A stretch of DNA of 34,554 nucleotides from a virus: positions 1 to 34,554 of IMG/VR virus record IMGVR_UViG_3300037245_000471; one strand, given 5' to 3'. The notes below the pieces were generated by a model. That model was not told the origin of the DNA. It was given only the letters and a program-made list of their open reading frames with translations, and did not search any database. Shown in pieces: positions 4,968 to 33,399 of this stretch (position 1 is its first letter; each line of letters starts with the position of its first letter). Made by a program: the position numbers and the translations under genes.

Positions 4968-5162
4968 TTAATTCATAACGCTGAGAATAGCTGCGGCTGC
5001 TACTGTTGCCGTAATTGTGGCGATAATACCGACAGCCCATTTACGGGATGATTCTAGGCTCTTTAACCTTTCGTGCTTTCGTCCGTCACTCACAAGTAGC
5101 TCGGTCACGTCTTCGCTGATCTTGTCGACAACTTTATTTATCCTTATAAGGGTCTCTTCCAT
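4968..5162 (-). CDS. Holin-like membrane protein (XhlA-type layout)
   Basis: A 64-residue protein with an N-terminal amphipathic helix or coiled coil (residues 1-38, including HERLKSLESSRKW) followed by one hydrophobic segment (about 41-61) rich in Ala, Ile and Thr. This layout, a soluble coil then a C-terminal transmembrane helix, is that of XhlA-type hemolysin/holin proteins. It lies three bases after a second membrane gene and a few genes before the endolysin. Holin function is probable but rests on topology and neighbourhood; a spanin-like or antiholin role is possible. Confidence 0.55.
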   Translation of the reverse strand: MEETLIRINKVVDKISEDVTELLVSDGRKHERLKSLESSRKWAVGIIATITATVAAAAILSVMN

Positions 5163-21161: not shown

Positions 21162-21511
21162 ATGAACTCATCGTCCGACTTGAACTCTCCAACTGCAACG
21201 TCATGTTTGTCAGTCTGATTCAGGTACTGCTTACCGAGCCAGATCAACATAGTAGGGTTGCCTTTTTCTGCAGACTTGTACTGCATACGACGGAGCGAAG
21301 CACGTCCTCCTGCTGCGTGTTTTTTATAGTAGTCCGTAAAGCATAGTTTGTGCTCACGCTTAATTGCCTTCTCTAATGTATCGTAATCAATGCCAAGAAT
21401 AGACGCAATCTCTTCGCCGGTGCATTGGATATAGCACAGCTTTTCAACCTTCGGCCAGTCGATTACATTTGGTTTTCTGCCATCTGGATTGTTAGTGTGT
21501 CCCTTTGGCAT
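21158..21511 (-). CDS. terS: Small terminase subunit
   Basis: A 117-residue protein with an N-terminal basic tail (PKGHTNNPDGRKP), an HTH (CTGEEIASILGIDYDTLEKAIK, best seen around residues 30-50), a central helix pair and a short end. It directly precedes large terminase and overlaps the end of the ParB-methyltransferase gene by about 20 bases. Small terminases recognise the packaging site and regulate the motor; the site is usually in or near this gene, but no pac sequence is obvious. Confidence 0.85.
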   Translation of the reverse strand: MPKGHTNNPDGRKPNVIDWPKVEKLCYIQCTGEEIASILGIDYDTLEKAIKREHKLCFTDYYKKHAAGGRASLRRMQYKSAEKGNPTMLIWLGKQYLNQTDKHDVAVGEFKSDDEFI

Positions 21512-22697
21512 CTCTCTCTTCCTTCATCTGCGAGTATGTCTTGCCGGTTTCGATGTGTGTTGCTTCCTTGCCAGTGAAGTCTTGCCAGCGGTTTATGATT
21601 ACGTCTGTGAATTTTTCCTCTAACTCCATCATCATGCATTGCTTGTGGTTCTTCTCACACGATATCAAGGTTGAACCTGAACCGCCGAATCCGTCATAGA
21701 CAACCTTCTTATCTGACTGATCAACCATAGCCATGTCAATCAACTCGACAGGCTTCATCGTAGGGTGAACGGTGTTCCTCTGCCTCTTTAGTTGCCACAC
21801 ATCCCCACGGAGTGTCTTGCTTCCACCAAAGTCACCGTAATAATAAATTATTTCGTGCTGCTTGTAATATTTGTCAAGGTGTTGTGCAGGGTTAATCTTG
21901 TCCCATACTATCATCGCCTTTGGTTTTCTTGCGATATTCTCCATGGCTTGTTTGAAGAGGTGAGAATACTGCCAACTACAACAGACATACATCGTCTCGC
22001 ATCCCATAACAGACATAGAAAGGAAGTCTATGAAGTCAGCGTCACTCATTTTATCGTTCTTGATCTTGTCGCGCTTGTCGCTCACAGCCTCGTAATCAAT
22101 ATTGTAAGGCGGGTCAGTAAAAACCATGTCGGCCTTCTGCCCATCCATCAACTTCTCAACCGCATCAATACTTGTCGAGTCACCGCACATTAATCGATGG
22201 TTGCCGAGTTGCCAAATGTCACCTAGTACGCTAACGGGAATCTCTGGTGGTTCTGGAACTGCGTCTTCGTCTGTCAACCCTTCCGTCTGCTCTTCCATCA
22301 GCCCGTCAAGGAAGTCTTTGTCAAATCCGAGGAGCTCTGTGTCGAAGTCCAACTCTTGTAATCCCTCTATCTCAAGCTTCAGCATATCCAGATCCCACCC
22401 AGCATTAAGAGCCAGTTGGTTGTCTGCTATGATGTATGCCTTTTTTTGCGCCTCTGTAAGCCCTGACAGCGTGATGGTCGGCACATCGTTTAACTTTAGT
22501 AGTGCAGCCGCCTTCACTCTTCCGTGTCCGGCTATGATGCCACCGTCTGTGTCAATCAGTATTGGATTTGTGAAGCCGAATTCTTTTATAGAGGATGCTA
22601 TCTGCGTGACTTGCTCGTCGCTGTGTGTCCTGCTGTTGCAGGCGTAAGGGATAAGCGTCGCAGTCTCTTTGTAATTTATTGAAAGGTTATCGCTCAA
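21492..22697 (-). CDS. ParB/Srx-like domain fused to N6-adenine DNA methyltransferase
   Basis: A 401-residue fusion. Residues about 1-100 are a ParB/sulfiredoxin-type domain with IIAGHGR (54-60). Residues about 155-385 form a beta-class amino-methyltransferase: DPPY (195-198) comes first, then HPTMKP (311-316) and the AdoMet-binding FGGSGST (337-343). It should methylate adenine in a specific site, protecting phage DNA or tagging a packaging or origin region. The start codon is TTG at 22697, overlapping the TGA of the zinc-ribbon ORF upstream. This architecture is known in phages, usually near terminase genes. No partner restriction enzyme is present. Confidence 0.9.
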   Translation of the reverse strand: MSDNLSINYKETATLIPYACNSRTHSDEQVTQIASSIKEFGFTNPILIDTDGGIIAGHGRVKAAALLKLNDVPTITLSGLTEAQKKAYIIADNQLALNAGWDLDMLKLEIEGLQELDFDTELLGFDKDFLDGLMEEQTEGLTDEDAVPEPPEIPVSVLGDIWQLGNHRLMCGDSTSIDAVEKLMDGQKADMVFTDPPYNIDYEAVSDKRDKIKNDKMSDADFIDFLSMSVMGCETMYVCCSWQYSHLFKQAMENIARKPKAMIVWDKINPAQHLDKYYKQHEIIYYYGDFGGSKTLRGDVWQLKRQRNTVHPTMKPVELIDMAMVDQSDKKVVYDGFGGSGSTLISCEKNHKQCMMMELEEKFTDVIINRWQDFTGKEATHIETGKTYSQMKEERDAKGTH

Positions 22698-26658: not shown

Positions 26659-27337
26659 GTTCTTTCTCCCTTGCTGCAATTTCTGCTTGACGTTCCTTGC
26701 TGATAGTCTTTAGACCTTCTGGCTCTTTCGGAATCTTACCGGCTGCGCGTTTCATCCAGTCCATCAGATTCAAGTTGAGGTCTAAAACTGGTTTTTTCCC
26801 TTGACGGTATTCGCGCCACTTCACAAACTCAAAATCATAAAGACTTCTCATCGCAGGGAAAAGCTCTAAGATTGTGTCTTTCATCCTCAAAGAAGCTTCT
26901 TCGTATTGGTCTAAGGTTTCTTTCTTTACTTCTTTTACTTCTTTTACTTCTTTAGATGTGTCCGTTCGGTGTTCGTTCGGTGTCTGTTCAGTGTTCGTTT
27001 TGGTGTCCGTTCCATTATAGTCATCGTAATTAAGTATTGTAATTAAGGTAGTTACGTTACTTTTCTGGTGTTCGATTTGGTGTTCGTTTTCGAGTTGTTT
27101 TAGGAACCTGTCAACTTTCCCCCTTGACCATCCCCAACGGTCAGCAAAGCCCTTTGTTGATATAGCAATCTGACCACGTTTAACCTCTATGACCTGGCTA
27201 CGCTTGACGAACTTTGTATCTTTAATGTTCGCGCTGATTAATAGATCAATCCAGGCATGTCCAAATGAAAAGGGCTTGTCTTGCCACATCCAATTGTCTT
27301 GGATCTTTCTGTATAATTTTAGATACCCACGTTTCAT
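26645..27337 (-). CDS. Replication initiator / helicase loader with winged helix
   Basis: A 230-residue protein. Residues 1-105 match the N-terminal winged-helix domain of phage replisome organisers: GYLKLYRKIQDNWMW, VKRGQIAISTKGFADRWGWS and RGKVDRFLKQLENE. A polar linker (about 108-140) is encoded by the iteron repeats and contains a KEV repeat. The C-terminal domain (about 145-230) is helical and probably contacts DnaB, whose gene is next. The layout (DNA-binding domain, origin in the linker-coding DNA, helicase-contact domain) mirrors lambda O plus a loader. The ATG at 27337 lacks a strong Shine-Dalgarno. Confidence 0.78.
   Translation of the reverse strand: MKRGYLKLYRKIQDNWMWQDKPFSFGHAWIDLLISANIKDTKFVKRSQVIEVKRGQIAISTKGFADRWGWSRGKVDRFLKQLENEHQIEHQKSNVTTLITILNYDDYNGTDTKTNTEQTPNEHRTDTSKEVKEVKEVKKETLDQYEEASLRMKDTILELFPAMRSLYDFEFVKWREYRQGKKPVLDLNLNLMDWMKRAAGKIPKEPEGLKTISKERQAEIAAREKELGLA
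26925..26951 (-). repeat. Three perfect 9-bp tandem repeats next to the iterons
   Basis: Three exact copies of AGAAGTAAA (minus strand) encode KEV-KEV-KEV. The block is A/T-rich and purine-only on one strand. It lies directly beside the iteron array and may be part of the unwinding region of the origin. Confidence 0.7.
26956..27088 (-). repeat. Iteron array: probable replication origin
   Basis: Five 11-bp units (consensus AACRRACACCG, minus strand) lie head to tail at 27011-26956: AACGGACACCA, AACGAACACTG, AACAGACACCG, AACGAACACCG and AACGGACACAT, with one extra base after the first. Two more copies (AACGAACACCA and TCGAACACCA) lie at 27088-27066. Between the groups is an A/T-rich segment with a repeated CTTAATTAC (27047-27039 and 27034-27026). 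Iterons at one-turn spacing inside an initiator gene, beside A/T-rich DNA, are the mark of a lambda-type origin. Confidence 0.75.
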
Positions 27338-27355
27338 TAGTTATCACTTAAACGC

Positions 27356-27399
27356 AAAAAACCCGCAACAGGGTGGGGACAGCCACTCCTGAAACGGGT
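27356..27399 (-). terminator. Leader terminator-like hairpin before the replication genes
   Basis: On the minus strand ACCCG (27399-27395), CAGG (27391-27388) and GTGG (27386-27383) pair with CCAC (27376-27373), CCTG (27372-27369) and CGGGT (27365-27361), closing a CTGTCC loop and followed by a run of six T. It lies between the promoter and the first replication gene, so it should attenuate transcription. Confidence 0.7.
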
Positions 27400-27420
27400 C
27401 TTTCTACTACTATCGTTTAT

Positions 27421-27436
27421 CGCATCTGTCCATGCG
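27421..27436 (-). promoter_or_regulatory. Leader hairpin with loop complementary to the terminator loop
   Basis: CGCAT (27436-27432), loop GGACAG (27431-27426), ATGCG (27425-27421) is a perfect 5-bp hairpin. Its six-base loop is the exact complement of the six-base loop CTGTCC (27382-27377) of the terminator hairpin downstream, so the two could form a kissing complex in RNA. Confidence 0.5.
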
Positions 27437-27456
27437 CCTACAATCAATGTTTTTAA

Positions 27457-27485
27457 AATATACATGATGCCTTTTCTGTTGTCAA
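27457..27485 (-). promoter_or_regulatory. Replication promoter
   Basis: TTGACA (27485-27480), 17-bp spacer, TATATT (27462-27457), near consensus. It gives a leader of about 110 nt carrying two hairpins before the initiator/loader ATG at 27337. Confidence 0.8.
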
Positions 27486-27512: not shown

Positions 27513-28436
27513 CTAGAATAGCAACTCTTGACCTTTGTCGCCAGCAACACCGTATGGGATTTCTAAGAAGTTTAGAACCTTGATTTCTTCAGGATCATTA
27601 ACAATTGATTCCCATAAATCTGGGTGTGTGTCTTTCATTAATACAAATCGTCCTGGTGACGGTTCCATGTCACAACCAAATTTACACTTATAACAACCGG
27701 TTCTGTCATAACCCATACTGTAGACAATACAGATCTTCAGATTAAATCTTTTGGTGTATTCAAGTTTATCCTTATGTGTCCAGAATGACATAGGCATAGA
27801 TTTAGGTATATCTCTGTCAAAAGCATTGCACCCTGTCCTGTTATATACCTCTTGCCTATTCTTACTATCTACGGCCATCTCTGCCGTCATAGGTACGTTC
27901 CCTGACTCCTTATGTCTCCTCTTTGCCGGTTCCTTTTTCATTACATCACAACATTTGTCGCTTATTTTAAAAGGAGCATCAATCACTCGGTGATATTTTT
28001 TAGGTATGGTGCGGGCCTGTTTTTTACCGGAAGATGGGCATGTGCCACCGTTAGCCCTCAGATCCCTTTGTTTTTCGCTCTTAGTTCCTCGGTATCGCGA
28101 GATAGCCATTGATACTTTTTTACTTATTACCGGATGGCCGTATTTCTTAATAACCTTCCGATATGACATCTTTGGTCGAATAATTACAACGTTGTCGAAT
28201 GTTTTTACAAACGCTTTAATCTCTGGGAACTCAAGCCCGGTGTCAACAAAGACAGCTGCAATGTCTGGGTACATTCCCCTCGCTATGTCTAGCAATATCG
28301 TGGAGTCCCAACCACCAGAAAAGAAGATATCAACGTTTCCCTCATAATATTCATACCATTCGCTGATCCTGCGCTGAGTAAGTATGATTTTAGCCTCAAG
28401 TGGAAGACTTTGTTTTTGAGCTAACTTCCAATTCAT
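27513..28436 (-). CDS. PP-loop protein, PAPS reductase-like
   Basis: A 307-residue protein of the phage PAPS-reductase/PP-loop family. The nucleotide loop is SGGWDST (residues 40-46), with Trp where Lys is usual (SGGKDS). VDTGLEFPEIKAF (64-76), RPKMSYRKVIKKYGHPVISKK (best seen around 87-107), a CC pair (162-163) and CYKCKFGC (248-255) follow, the Cys set probably binding an iron-sulfur cluster or metal. Relatives adenylate substrates or take part in sulfur chemistry such as DNA or tRNA thiolation; the phage substrate is unknown. AAAGGTGA precedes the ATG. It lies between NinG and the replication promoter. Confidence 0.8.
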   Translation of the reverse strand: MNWKLAQKQSLPLEAKIILTQRRISEWYEYYEGNVDIFFSGGWDSTILLDIARGMYPDIAAVFVDTGLEFPEIKAFVKTFDNVVIIRPKMSYRKVIKKYGHPVISKKVSMAISRYRGTKSEKQRDLRANGGTCPSSGKKQARTIPKKYHRVIDAPFKISDKCCDVMKKEPAKRRHKESGNVPMTAEMAVDSKNRQEVYNRTGCNAFDRDIPKSMPMSFWTHKDKLEYTKRFNLKICIVYSMGYDRTGCYKCKFGCDMEPSPGRFVLMKDTHPDLWESIVNDPEEIKVLNFLEIPYGVAGDKGQELLF

Positions 28437-31437: not shown

Positions 31438-31868
31438 GTCTTCGCCCTCGTAGCGCCTAAGTTGCGCGTCTTTGGATAGTTGTCTAATATGCCTCTGACG
31501 CTGTGAAAGTTGTAGCAGGGTCGGCAAAGGCCGCGACCTTGGATAAACTTCTCTTTAGAGCAGCACAGGCATTTGTGAATACGTGGTGCAGGTCTACGCC
31601 GTGGCTTCTTGTGATGCTCCTGGCTACCACCTACGACCTTCGGCTTCTCGCCTGCGAACCGTGGGCAGTCGCAACTTTGACAGGAATGTTTCTCCAGTCT
31701 GACAGCGCAACTCGCCTTATAGTAATTCAGCTTGTAGTCCGGGCCTGGTATCGCTTTACAGTATAAATTATACTCAGCGTCAGGCAGAGCCCCGTTGCTT
31801 CCTGTCTTGTCCTGTAGGCTGTTATAACTTGGTTGGTCAAACATTGGCTCTCTCCTATACTGAGACAA
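31434..31868 (-). CDS. Zinc-finger protein
   Basis: A 144-residue basic protein with an N-terminal polar part, CQSCDCPRF (about residues 63-71) and a C-terminal zinc site (CLCCSKEKFIQGRGLCRPCY, about 99-118) followed by GILDNYPKTRN. The last part resembles phage zinc proteins that bind DNA or RNA polymerase. A role in transcription control, including antitermination, is conceivable given the leader terminators elsewhere, but no known family is recognised with certainty. Confidence 0.65.
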   Translation of the reverse strand: MSQYRREPMFDQPSYNSLQDKTGSNGALPDAEYNLYCKAIPGPDYKLNYYKASCAVRLEKHSCQSCDCPRFAGEKPKVVGGSQEHHKKPRRRPAPRIHKCLCCSKEKFIQGRGLCRPCYNFHSVRGILDNYPKTRNLGATRAKT

Positions 31869-31884
31869 CTACCGAGTGAAGGGG

Positions 31885-32091
31885 TTAATACATCTTCATG
31901 TCGCTATACTTCATGTCCAAGTCGTGCGCTCTCTGCCTCTGCTTAACAATTCTTACTGTGTCCTCTTTTAGCGTTGTCTTCCCGGCAAAGATGCGTACGT
32001 AGTTAAGATTCAGCTTGTGGTCGAACTCGTTGCCACTCAAGTAGATGTAGAACCAGCACCAATCGCATATCCTCTTCCATCGGTCTTTCAT
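31885..32091 (-). CDS. Small hypothetical protein
   Basis: A 68-residue basic protein with an aromatic N-terminus (RICDWCWFYIYLSG) and a helical, charged C-terminus (KQRQRAHDLDMKYSDMKMY). AAAGGAG lies before the ATG. It follows the HNH gene by 30 bp. Family not recognised. Confidence 0.6.
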   Translation of the reverse strand: MKDRWKRICDWCWFYIYLSGNEFDHKLNLNYVRIFAGKTTLKEDTVRIVKQRQRAHDLDMKYSDMKMY

Positions 32092-32121
32092 TTTGTTTCT
32101 CCTTTGTTAGAGACAATCCGA

Positions 32122-32604
32122 CTAATCGATATGTTTCCATGCAGTTCGTGTTATTATTTTCCGTATTGCAGATTCCTGCACATCATACAACTTTGCAAGA
32201 TCTTTCGTTTTAGCACCTTCAGCGGCTCTTAATCTTATGGATACAATGTCGCCATCTTTGAACTTTGAATTATAGCAACTTTCCCCATGTGGTCGAGTCT
32301 CTTCATTGCCCCTATACCCTCTCCCCTTCGCGATCATATCGTCTGTGTTGTCTTGGTGTGTGCCAACGAATAGATGCTCAGGGTTTACGCACGGCGGGTT
32401 ATCGCATTTATGTAGAACAAGAAGATTGTCAGGGATAACACCAACGTGTATTTGATAGCTCATTCTATGGGCAAGGACTACCTTAGCGTTTACCACAAAC
32501 CTGCCATACCCATCATCAAACCGACAGGCATTCCATTCCCAGCAACCAGAGGTTACTTTGGATATCTTCTTATTGAATCTGTCTAACAATTTATCGTCGA
32601 ACAT
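32122..32604 (-). CDS. HNH endonuclease with C-terminal HTH
   Basis: A 160-residue protein. Residues about 18-90 form an HNH_3-type nuclease: CWEWNACRFDDGYGRF, then LAHRMSY, LVLHKCDNPPCVNPEHLFVG. The C-terminal half (about 115-155) has an HTH-like segment (AKTKDLAKLYDVQESAIRKI). This two-part form is typical of phage homing endonucleases that spread as free-standing genes. CGGAG precedes the ATG. It directly follows the highly structured untranslated region at 32605-32848. Confidence 0.88.
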   Translation of the reverse strand: MFDDKLLDRFNKKISKVTSGCWEWNACRFDDGYGRFVVNAKVVLAHRMSYQIHVGVIPDNLLVLHKCDNPPCVNPEHLFVGTHQDNTDDMIAKGRGYRGNEETRPHGESCYNSKFKDGDIVSIRLRAAEGAKTKDLAKLYDVQESAIRKIITRTAWKHID

Positions 32605-32848
32605 ATTCTTGCTCCGCCGGTAAGAGTGACGCTCTTTGTTCTATGTTTCCTTGTGAGCCATCCCGCCAAGTATTGACGATTTGTTTAGGTGAAACTCACG
32701 CCACCAAATAGGAAAACCCCACACGATCCTTTCGACGGGATGTGCAGGGTTTAGCGTTTGTGCGGGGTTTTCCCAAAATGATGTAAGCTAAACCGTACCC
32801 GTCGAAAAGTACACAGTTAGCTTATCACACTGGTTGTTGGTGTCAACA
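32605..32848 (-). other. 244-bp untranslated region with strong RNA structure
   Basis: There is no gene in this gap. On the minus strand it opens with TTGACA (32846-32841) and only a weak -10 (TAAGCT, 16-bp spacing), then has three long stems between 32824 and 32711, two small hairpins (GTGAgttTCAC, and AAGAGcgtcaCTCTT just before the ribosome-binding site) and the HNH start. The stems are listed separately. Confidence 0.75.
32711..32824 (-). other. Nested inverted repeats: possible RNA switch or pseudoknot
   Basis: Minus-strand RNA could form S0 (32824-32817 with 32791-32784, 8 bp, plus GTAC 32812-32809 with 32798-32795); S1 (32807-32798 with 32739-32730, 10 bp, plus 32794-32787 with 32755-32748, 8 bp); and S2 (32773-32760 with 32724-32711, 14 bp). 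S0 and S1 use the same bases and exclude each other. S1 and S2 interlock as a pseudoknot. S2 contains one G-U pair only if the minus strand is transcribed; in the plus-strand RNA it would be an A-C mismatch. Confidence 0.6.
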
Positions 32849-33145
32849 TTAAATCTCTAGCCGGTCGAGTGTGTCTCTGACCTGTGAGATAAACTCGTCA
32901 ATGTTGTACCTGCTGGTTCTGACCTCACCGGCTACCTGTACCAACTCTTGATCTTTTTCACACTCCTCTTGTTTGCAGGTGGAAGGTAGTTGGTGTCTGA
33001 GTACAGGAGTGAGCCTATCGAACAGACGAGATAGCTGTGTGTCAAGCTCTTGGATTGCTGCGGCCATATGCCCTATTTCCTGGCTCACCTCTGACGGTCG
33101 TTTTACCTCACATGCTGGGCCAAGTTGTGCTTGATTCTTTTCCAT
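32849..33145 (-). CDS. Helical phage protein
   Basis: A 98-residue protein with a long amphipathic helix (GHMAAAIQELDTQLSRLFDR) and a C-terminal helix (ISQVRDTLDRLEI), probably a coiled-coil dimer. The EVSQEIGHMAAAIQELDTQ...RLTPVLR pattern recurs in phage genomes without known function. It is the last gene before the structured region. Confidence 0.65.
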   Translation of the reverse strand: MEKNQAQLGPACEVKRPSEVSQEIGHMAAAIQELDTQLSRLFDRLTPVLRHQLPSTCKQEECEKDQELVQVAGEVRTSRYNIDEFISQVRDTLDRLEI

Positions 33146-33189
33146 AGTTTCCTCCGTTAAGGTTAGTCTGTCGTGGTGTCAAGAATTAA

Positions 33190-33399
33190 TCAGGCGCTAC
33201 CATATTTAAAACTAATAAAACCATCGTCTCCGTCTTCGCTCACAATAAACCCTAAGGCGTTAAGTTCTTCCTTGTCCTCGACAGTCACCATGTCTGGCTC
33301 AATGCCACAAATATACATAACATCCTGCTCGCAGTGTGTCGGATATGTCGGGTTTCCGTATTTCAGGAAAATGGTTAAAGCTCTAATCAGGTTTTCCAT
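33190..33399 (-). CDS. Conserved small phage protein (KYG / PTHCEQD / FKYGSA)
   Basis: A 69-residue protein with the pattern LIRALTIFLKYGNPTYPTHC, then LGFIVSEDGDDGFISFKYGSA at the end, a small conserved family found next to recombination genes in many phages. Function unknown. It lies between the ERF gene and the coiled-coil protein. Confidence 0.75.
   Translation of the reverse strand: MENLIRALTIFLKYGNPTYPTHCEQDVMYICGIEPDMVTVEDKEELNALGFIVSEDGDDGFISFKYGSA

Follow-up and report, generated by a model that had tools for sequence, protein, structure and literature searches.

The 244-bp gap ahead of the HNH gene

Does the gap in front of a phage homing-type endonuclease gene encode an RNA that controls the gene behind it? 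The 244-bp gap 32605-32848 lies between a 98-aa gene and an HNH_3 gene, both on the minus strand, in a phage contig in IMG/VR, from which a stretch of 34,554 nt (the window) was analysed. No ORF of at least 50 aa was present within this gap, and no tRNA was detected. Further upstream, beyond the 98-aa gene (p98), lie ERF and exonuclease genes, and downstream of HNH follow NinB, NinG, a DnaD-like helicase loader and DnaB. The features of the gap and of its two flanking genes are collected in Table 1. Two other minus-strand genes of the window were also observed: a PAPS-reductase-domain gene (Pfam PAPS_reduct) at 27513-28436, in the early region and adjoining the replication genes, and an ORF at 21492-22697, the first part of which matches ParB-like partition families and the second part DNA methyltransferase families.

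Table 1. Features of the gap and its flanking genes, in window positions, listed in the direction of the minus strand
Feature	Position	Strand	Remarks
98-aa gene (p98), 5' of gap	32849..33145	-	orphan; no relatives found
-35 box TTGACA	32841..32846	-	promoter score 11.8
-10 box TAAGCT	32819..32824	-	16-nt spacer; TGA in front (extended -10)
D stem, TAAGCTAA/TTAGCTTA + GTAC/GTAC, X1 in loop	32784..32824	-	only in RNA begun upstream of the local promoter
X1, CUUUUCGACGGG	32798..32809	-	predicted transcript 5' end; seqA-like; 12 bp with X'
C', GGUUUAGC	32787..32794	-	adds to the X1-X' fold; 8/8 pairs in nascent MFE
H5, 5' arm of terminator-like hairpin H	32760..32775	-	AAAA tract + CCCCGCAC core; 16 bp with H3
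C, GCUAAACC	32748..32755	-	within loop of H; pairs with C'
X', CCCGUCGAAAGG	32728..32739	-	within 35-nt loop of H; seqB-like
H3, 3' arm of H	32709..32724	-	GUGUGGGG core, then UUUUCCUAUUU; putative terminator role
X2, UUGGCGGGAUG	32659..32669	-	second X' partner, seqC-like; 11 bp with 2 G-U; P = 0.003 (0.002 in another test)
UUCGACG, HNH codons 2-4	32595..32601	-	third X' partner, 7 bp; local shuffle p = 0.055, marginal
HNH_3 homing-type endonuclease gene	32122..32604	-	160 aa; Pfam HNH_3, E = 2e-11

Complementary segments of the minus-strand leader

The original prediction, made from the letters of this DNA, had placed three long complementarities within 114 nt of the gap, and all of them were found in the sequence. 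In the 14-bp stem (arms 32711-32724/32760-32773), an A/C mismatch of the plus strand is a G-U pair on the minus strand, as had been proposed. The minus-strand hairpin H comprises 16 bp (32775-32760/32724-32709), with two G-U pairs possible on this strand only. The 10+8 bp long-range stem was recovered as 10 Watson-Crick pairs (32730-32739/32798-32807) and a further 8 bp (32748-32755/32787-32794); in minus-strand RNA, X1-X' has 12 bp with one G-U pair (32809-32798/32739-32728) and C'-C has 8 Watson-Crick pairs (32794-32787/32755-32748). The G-U pairs that end both long stems become mismatches in plus-strand RNA, the minus strand being the sense of the genes. X1-X' and H use separate bases and are interlocked. 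The CGUCGAAA part of X' can also occupy a small AUCC/GGAU sub-hairpin at 32726-32741, and the last bases of X2, the second partner of X', are the AUG that opens a six-codon ORF (MAHKET).

The stems in the gap are beyond chance. A search of the whole 34.5-kb window for exact inverted repeats that reach 10 bp and span no more than 130 nt gave two, both inside the 244-bp gap; among 2000 dinucleotide shuffles of the gap, none contained a pair of exact stems of 10 bp or longer. When H was taken as given and the 60 nt upstream were shuffled, 0.02% of the shuffles had an X1-X' duplex this good (P = 0.0002; this and the other P values for the element are post hoc). The minus-strand MFE z score was -4.6 for 126 nt (32705-32830). 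When the whole gap was folded, z was -2.4 for minus-strand RNA and an unremarkable -0.2 for plus-strand RNA.

Promoter and folding order

A sigma-70-like promoter lies ahead of X1, and its score was reached by 0 of 300 shuffles and by 0.11% of window positions (p about 0.001). From its boxes, transcription is predicted to start near 32812, about 3 nt before X1, so that X1 would be the extreme 5' end of the RNA. The 8+4 local stem of the original prediction, here called D, does exist (8 bp, 32784-32791/32817-32824, plus GTAC/GTAC); because its 5' arm at 32817-32824 overlaps the predicted -10 box at 32819-32824, it is restricted to RNA started further upstream, that is, to read-through RNA.

We folded the growing RNA by MFE, which disregards kinetics and cannot score pseudoknots, and the results showed a three-state switch. 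As H3 emerged, through 32716, the nascent chain held X1-X' (12/12 pairs) together with C'-C (8/8 pairs) at -31 kcal/mol, and at 32707 the best fold was H with 16/16 pairs (-35.6). With the RNA 5' end at 32826 or beyond, D formed first and X1-X' briefly next, and the flip away from X1-X' came about 9 nt earlier (32716); in this model, the D stem of read-through RNA thus favours earlier switching to H. The succession of the X1-X' fold and H confirmed that the stems are mutually exclusive, as had been claimed. X1-X' and H could conceivably combine in an H-type pseudoknot, the linkers of which would measure 22, 20 and 3 nt. The G+C-rich core of H is 8 bp long; with UUUUCCUAUUU behind it, the hairpin resembles a weak or two-way intrinsic terminator. 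Termination at H may be weak, given its 35-nt loop and a U tract that lies partly within the stem.

The same phage has another candidate leader at 27337-27485 (minus strand), upstream of the DnaD-like gene. Behind a promoter TTGACA...TATATT at 27485 comes a terminator-like hairpin (GACCCG...CGGGTTTTTT). The leader has a hairpin loop GGACAG, and the terminator-like hairpin has the inner loop CTGTCC; shuffles of the region gave 0/3000. CGTTTCA near the loop also matches the start of the DnaD-like gene. A general screen for kissing loops of 6 to 8 nt found no excess (526 vs about 600 in shuffles), and kissing loops alone are therefore no evidence. That this region is a second attenuator leader is only suggestive.

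Homologue and family searches

Homologues of the gap were found neither in annotated phages nor, by pattern, in viral contigs; the pattern TTTCGACGGG...CCCGTCGAAA had its sole match in L164, in an unrelated context, and was discarded. The pairs of the window element are accordingly known from a single sequence. Three capsid relatives of the phage (G001, G003 and G004; 82%, 77% and 70% identical) had only structural genes in common with it; ERF, p98 and the gap were absent from them and their early region was different. The leaders of 80 HNH relatives revealed no common structure.

The Rfam search of the gap that had been proposed as a check gave no match at the gathering threshold, nor at E <= 5 for 31800-33300. 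A group I intron or a HEARO/IscB guide RNA was accordingly rejected, the gene itself encoding a 160-aa HNH_3 protein. Riboswitch and RNA thermometer, two of the functions initially suggested for the leader, are not supported either: besides the missing Rfam match, a conserved aptamer-like core is absent, and H stops about 104 nt short of the HNH start codon, leaving the ribosome-binding site uncovered.

Recurrence of the layout in other phage DNA

We searched 3.2 Mb of phage-related DNA with an architecture descriptor: a T-tailed hairpin, a loop of 14-70 nt and, 8-45 nt upstream, a segment able to form 11 bp or more with that loop. Strict hits had both scores at or above 26 and a T-rich tail. 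The X1-H5-X'-H3 layout with a T-rich tail was found at six places (the window, L163, L256, L142, L006 and L249), compared with a mean of 0.25-0.38 per shuffled set, with a descriptor that was shaped partly on the window and L163. A strong upstream partner was present for 10 of 238 T-tailed large-loop hairpins of moderate GC, vs 0.6 with shuffled upstream sequence and 0 with DNA 200 nt further up. These counts suggest an enrichment of the layout that holds for the 3.2 Mb searched and for a descriptor built on the first examples. High-GC interlocked pairs, such as those in L090 and L158, were near shuffle levels and were dropped.

The sequences of the six loci are unrelated. The flip from X1-X' to H at completion of H3 was computed in 6/6 loci, less cleanly in L249, where it was delayed, and in L006, which flipped back later. 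A promoter before X1 was strong in L256 (p 0.002), weaker in L249 and L163, and not convincing in L142 and L006; L142, L006 and L249 overlap predicted ORFs. X2-type partners in L256, L142, L006 and L249 were not significant. The L256 element (3971-3870, minus strand), a very clean case, comes from G001, the capsid relative of the window phage, and lies between a TTGACA-16-TACTAT promoter and the first of two replication-like genes; its 18-nt 5' segment can pair with the loop of the terminator at its end, GGGGGTTTTTTT, which is of the classic intrinsic kind. L163 precedes a NUMOD4/HNH gene (Pfam matches under the cut-off), L249 lies about 350 nt ahead of a serine-recombinase-like gene, and the gene after L142 is non-HNH with no function assigned.

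L163 (2625-2762) has a leader segment in common with L162 (1-130), at 78% over 45 nt. The hairpin arms of L162 and L163 differ yet pair in both (18 bp and 16 bp), and their loops differ too; the genes that follow are two different HNH-type genes, and each loop is complementary to the bases that immediately precede the start codon in its own locus (GTCGTTGTT/AACAACGAC and GTAGTTAATT/AATTAACTAC). This comparison of two sequences, too few for a formal covariation test, suggests that the loop pairing outlasts changes on both sides. No more members of the shared leader were found.

Other structured regions were observed in the same DNA. L248 4960-5140 is a MITE-like palindrome with GTAACTTCTCAATAAGTGGTG inverted ends and two inner hairpins with fully complementary 9-nt loops, upstream of a DnaB gene; its centre, 5018-5087, had been a candidate for the layout and was rejected as part of this palindromic element. 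At L336 18917-18780 (minus strand), a 12-nt pairing joins a hairpin loop to the ribosome-binding site and start codon of a putative 50-aa ORF. L028 8340-8475 contains a long-range inverted repeat (more than 20 bp with interruptions, loop of about 80 nt) just upstream of a start codon.

Comparison with known leader RNAs

The original prediction held that no known phage element matches this arrangement, which is too strong: P4 CI RNA and the hairpins in T4-type homing endonuclease leaders work by a related logic. In P4 CI RNA, the loop seqB is complementary to the upstream seqA and the downstream seqC of the same transcript, and the pairing leads to premature termination before the replication genes (PMC4825925). 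This published seqA/seqB/seqC logic was traced in the P4 sequence: TCCTGTGAA of the C4/CI RNA is complementary to TTCACAGG upstream and also to TTCACAGGA, which lies at the Shine-Dalgarno site of the next gene. Like C4/P4 CI (RF01695, IsrK/seqA RNA), X' of the window is complementary to both upstream X1 (12 bp) and downstream X2 (11 bp). In contrast to C4 (RF01695), the window has no covariance-model match and its downstream gene is HNH; P4 and N15, the positive controls, gave Rfam matches to C4 and isrK RNAs, which the window did not. Moreover, C4 is a processed two-hairpin RNA, whereas the window element, known here from sequence, is a single compact hairpin, about 105 nt in length, that has X1 at its extreme 5' end. 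The layout descriptor did not pick out P4 as such, because P4 divides its pairings, which are also shorter, between two RNAs. On paper the window works like P4 CI, but it lies outside the P4 CI family.

The pT181-type attenuator has alternative anti-terminator and terminator leader folds with kissing-type initiation (PMC4878617), and the window likewise has, by computation, two mutually exclusive folds, one with a predicted intrinsic terminator. The pT181 anti-terminator covers the 5' arm of the terminator, whereas the partner in the window is the terminator loop. The antisense RNA of pT181 is made from the opposite strand; in the window, a consensus scan of the gap gave no plus-strand promoter-like site. 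Homing endonuclease expression is also set by RNA structure, dependent on the promoter used, in the I-TevI, mobE and segB leaders, and the leader hairpins of T4 I-TevI and Aeh1 mobE are promoter-dependent (PMC2988022). The structure of the window leader would similarly depend on the promoter that made the RNA. The T4/Aeh1 hairpins cover the ribosome-binding site, whereas H in the window ends well upstream of the start codon and the loop has a marginal 7-bp match to codons 2-4.

A candidate transcription attenuator and its alternatives

We give an even chance to the reading that the element is a transcription attenuator close to its promoter, one that perhaps acts in trans too, through its own terminated RNA. 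RNA from the local promoter would begin just before X1, and X', once made, would pair at once with X1 (and C' with C), trapping H5 in the interlocked loop and delaying H, so that RNA polymerase could get past the U-rich tract and on into HNH. Were X1 occupied or late, H would form and the RNA would stop at about 105 nt. Read-through RNA from the upstream genes would carry the D hairpin, by which X1 would be held and H favoured. In the terminated RNA, X' would be exposed and might pair with a different transcript at X1 or X2, causing more termination or a translation block, as with seqA and seqC of P4 CI RNA. We take the target to be the HNH gene rather than the whole downstream operon. The self-regulating or antiterminator-type minus-strand leader of the original prediction is well supported computationally, by promoter placement, strand-specific G-U pairs, folding order and recurrence in unrelated phages.

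A simpler account makes H the plain intrinsic terminator of the exonuclease-ERF-p98 operon, beside a separate HNH promoter, with X1-X' incidental. The position of H, 125-140 nt past the p98 stop codon, its G+C-rich core followed by U-rich sequence, and the commonness of T-tailed hairpins in phage DNA (the 238 of moderate GC) are consistent with it. However, H is downstream of the promoter, so that HNH is reached only by reading through H, and both the P value of X1-X' given H (0.0002) and the recurring order X1-H5-X'-H3 argue against an incidental pairing; we consider this account fairly unlikely. Translational control, in which X' would be antisense to the HNH initiation region and keep the endonuclease silent, draws on the T4 I-TevI and Aeh1 mobE precedent of hairpins that sequester the ribosome-binding site (PMC2988022), on the 7-bp pairing of X' with HNH codons 2-4 and on the loops of L163 (9 bp) and L162 (10 bp), which pair with bases before the HNH start codon. 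The single matches are marginal (p 0.055-0.09), a shared structure is absent in the eighty other HNH leaders, and the layout precedes a replication gene in L256 and a non-HNH gene in L142, which makes this explanation unlikely.

The gap might instead act as DNA. Several similar 8-15 nt repeats (GGTTTAGC/GGTTTTCC) lie in both orientations over the promoter and its flank, as an operator or iteron cluster with sites for a regulator would have them; yet their spacing is irregular, the layout recurs with unrelated sequences, and the end pairs of both long stems are G-U, possible in minus-strand RNA only, so that such a cluster appears quite improbable. Direct and inverted copies of short motifs clustered in the gap, repeated segments in L163 and the mobile palindromes present in such DNA (L248) would also fit chance or a functionless relic of inverted duplication, by template switching or endonuclease-induced repair. 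This origin is very improbable in our judgement, as promoter, T-tail and ordered pairing coincide at several unrelated loci.

Implications for phage leader RNAs

Beyond the attenuator reading of this one element, it is possible, though doubtful, that the loci belong to a class of phage leader RNA that recurs with divergent sequences. In its members, the transcript's 5' end would pair with the loop of a terminator close to the promoter, making a self-contained attenuator, and the terminated product would be its own trans repressor. RNA-only control or immunity would then extend beyond P4/P1/N15 and be placed before HNH and replication genes. If this is right, phages outside the P4/P1/N15 group run early and mobile genes by compact leader RNAs, and such leaders escape sequence-based RNA families, the loop sequence differing from copy to copy. 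The layout is easily searchable and would supply small natural attenuators. Every copy would be specific in its own way, a point relevant to the exclusion of close relatives and to the silencing of homing endonucleases.
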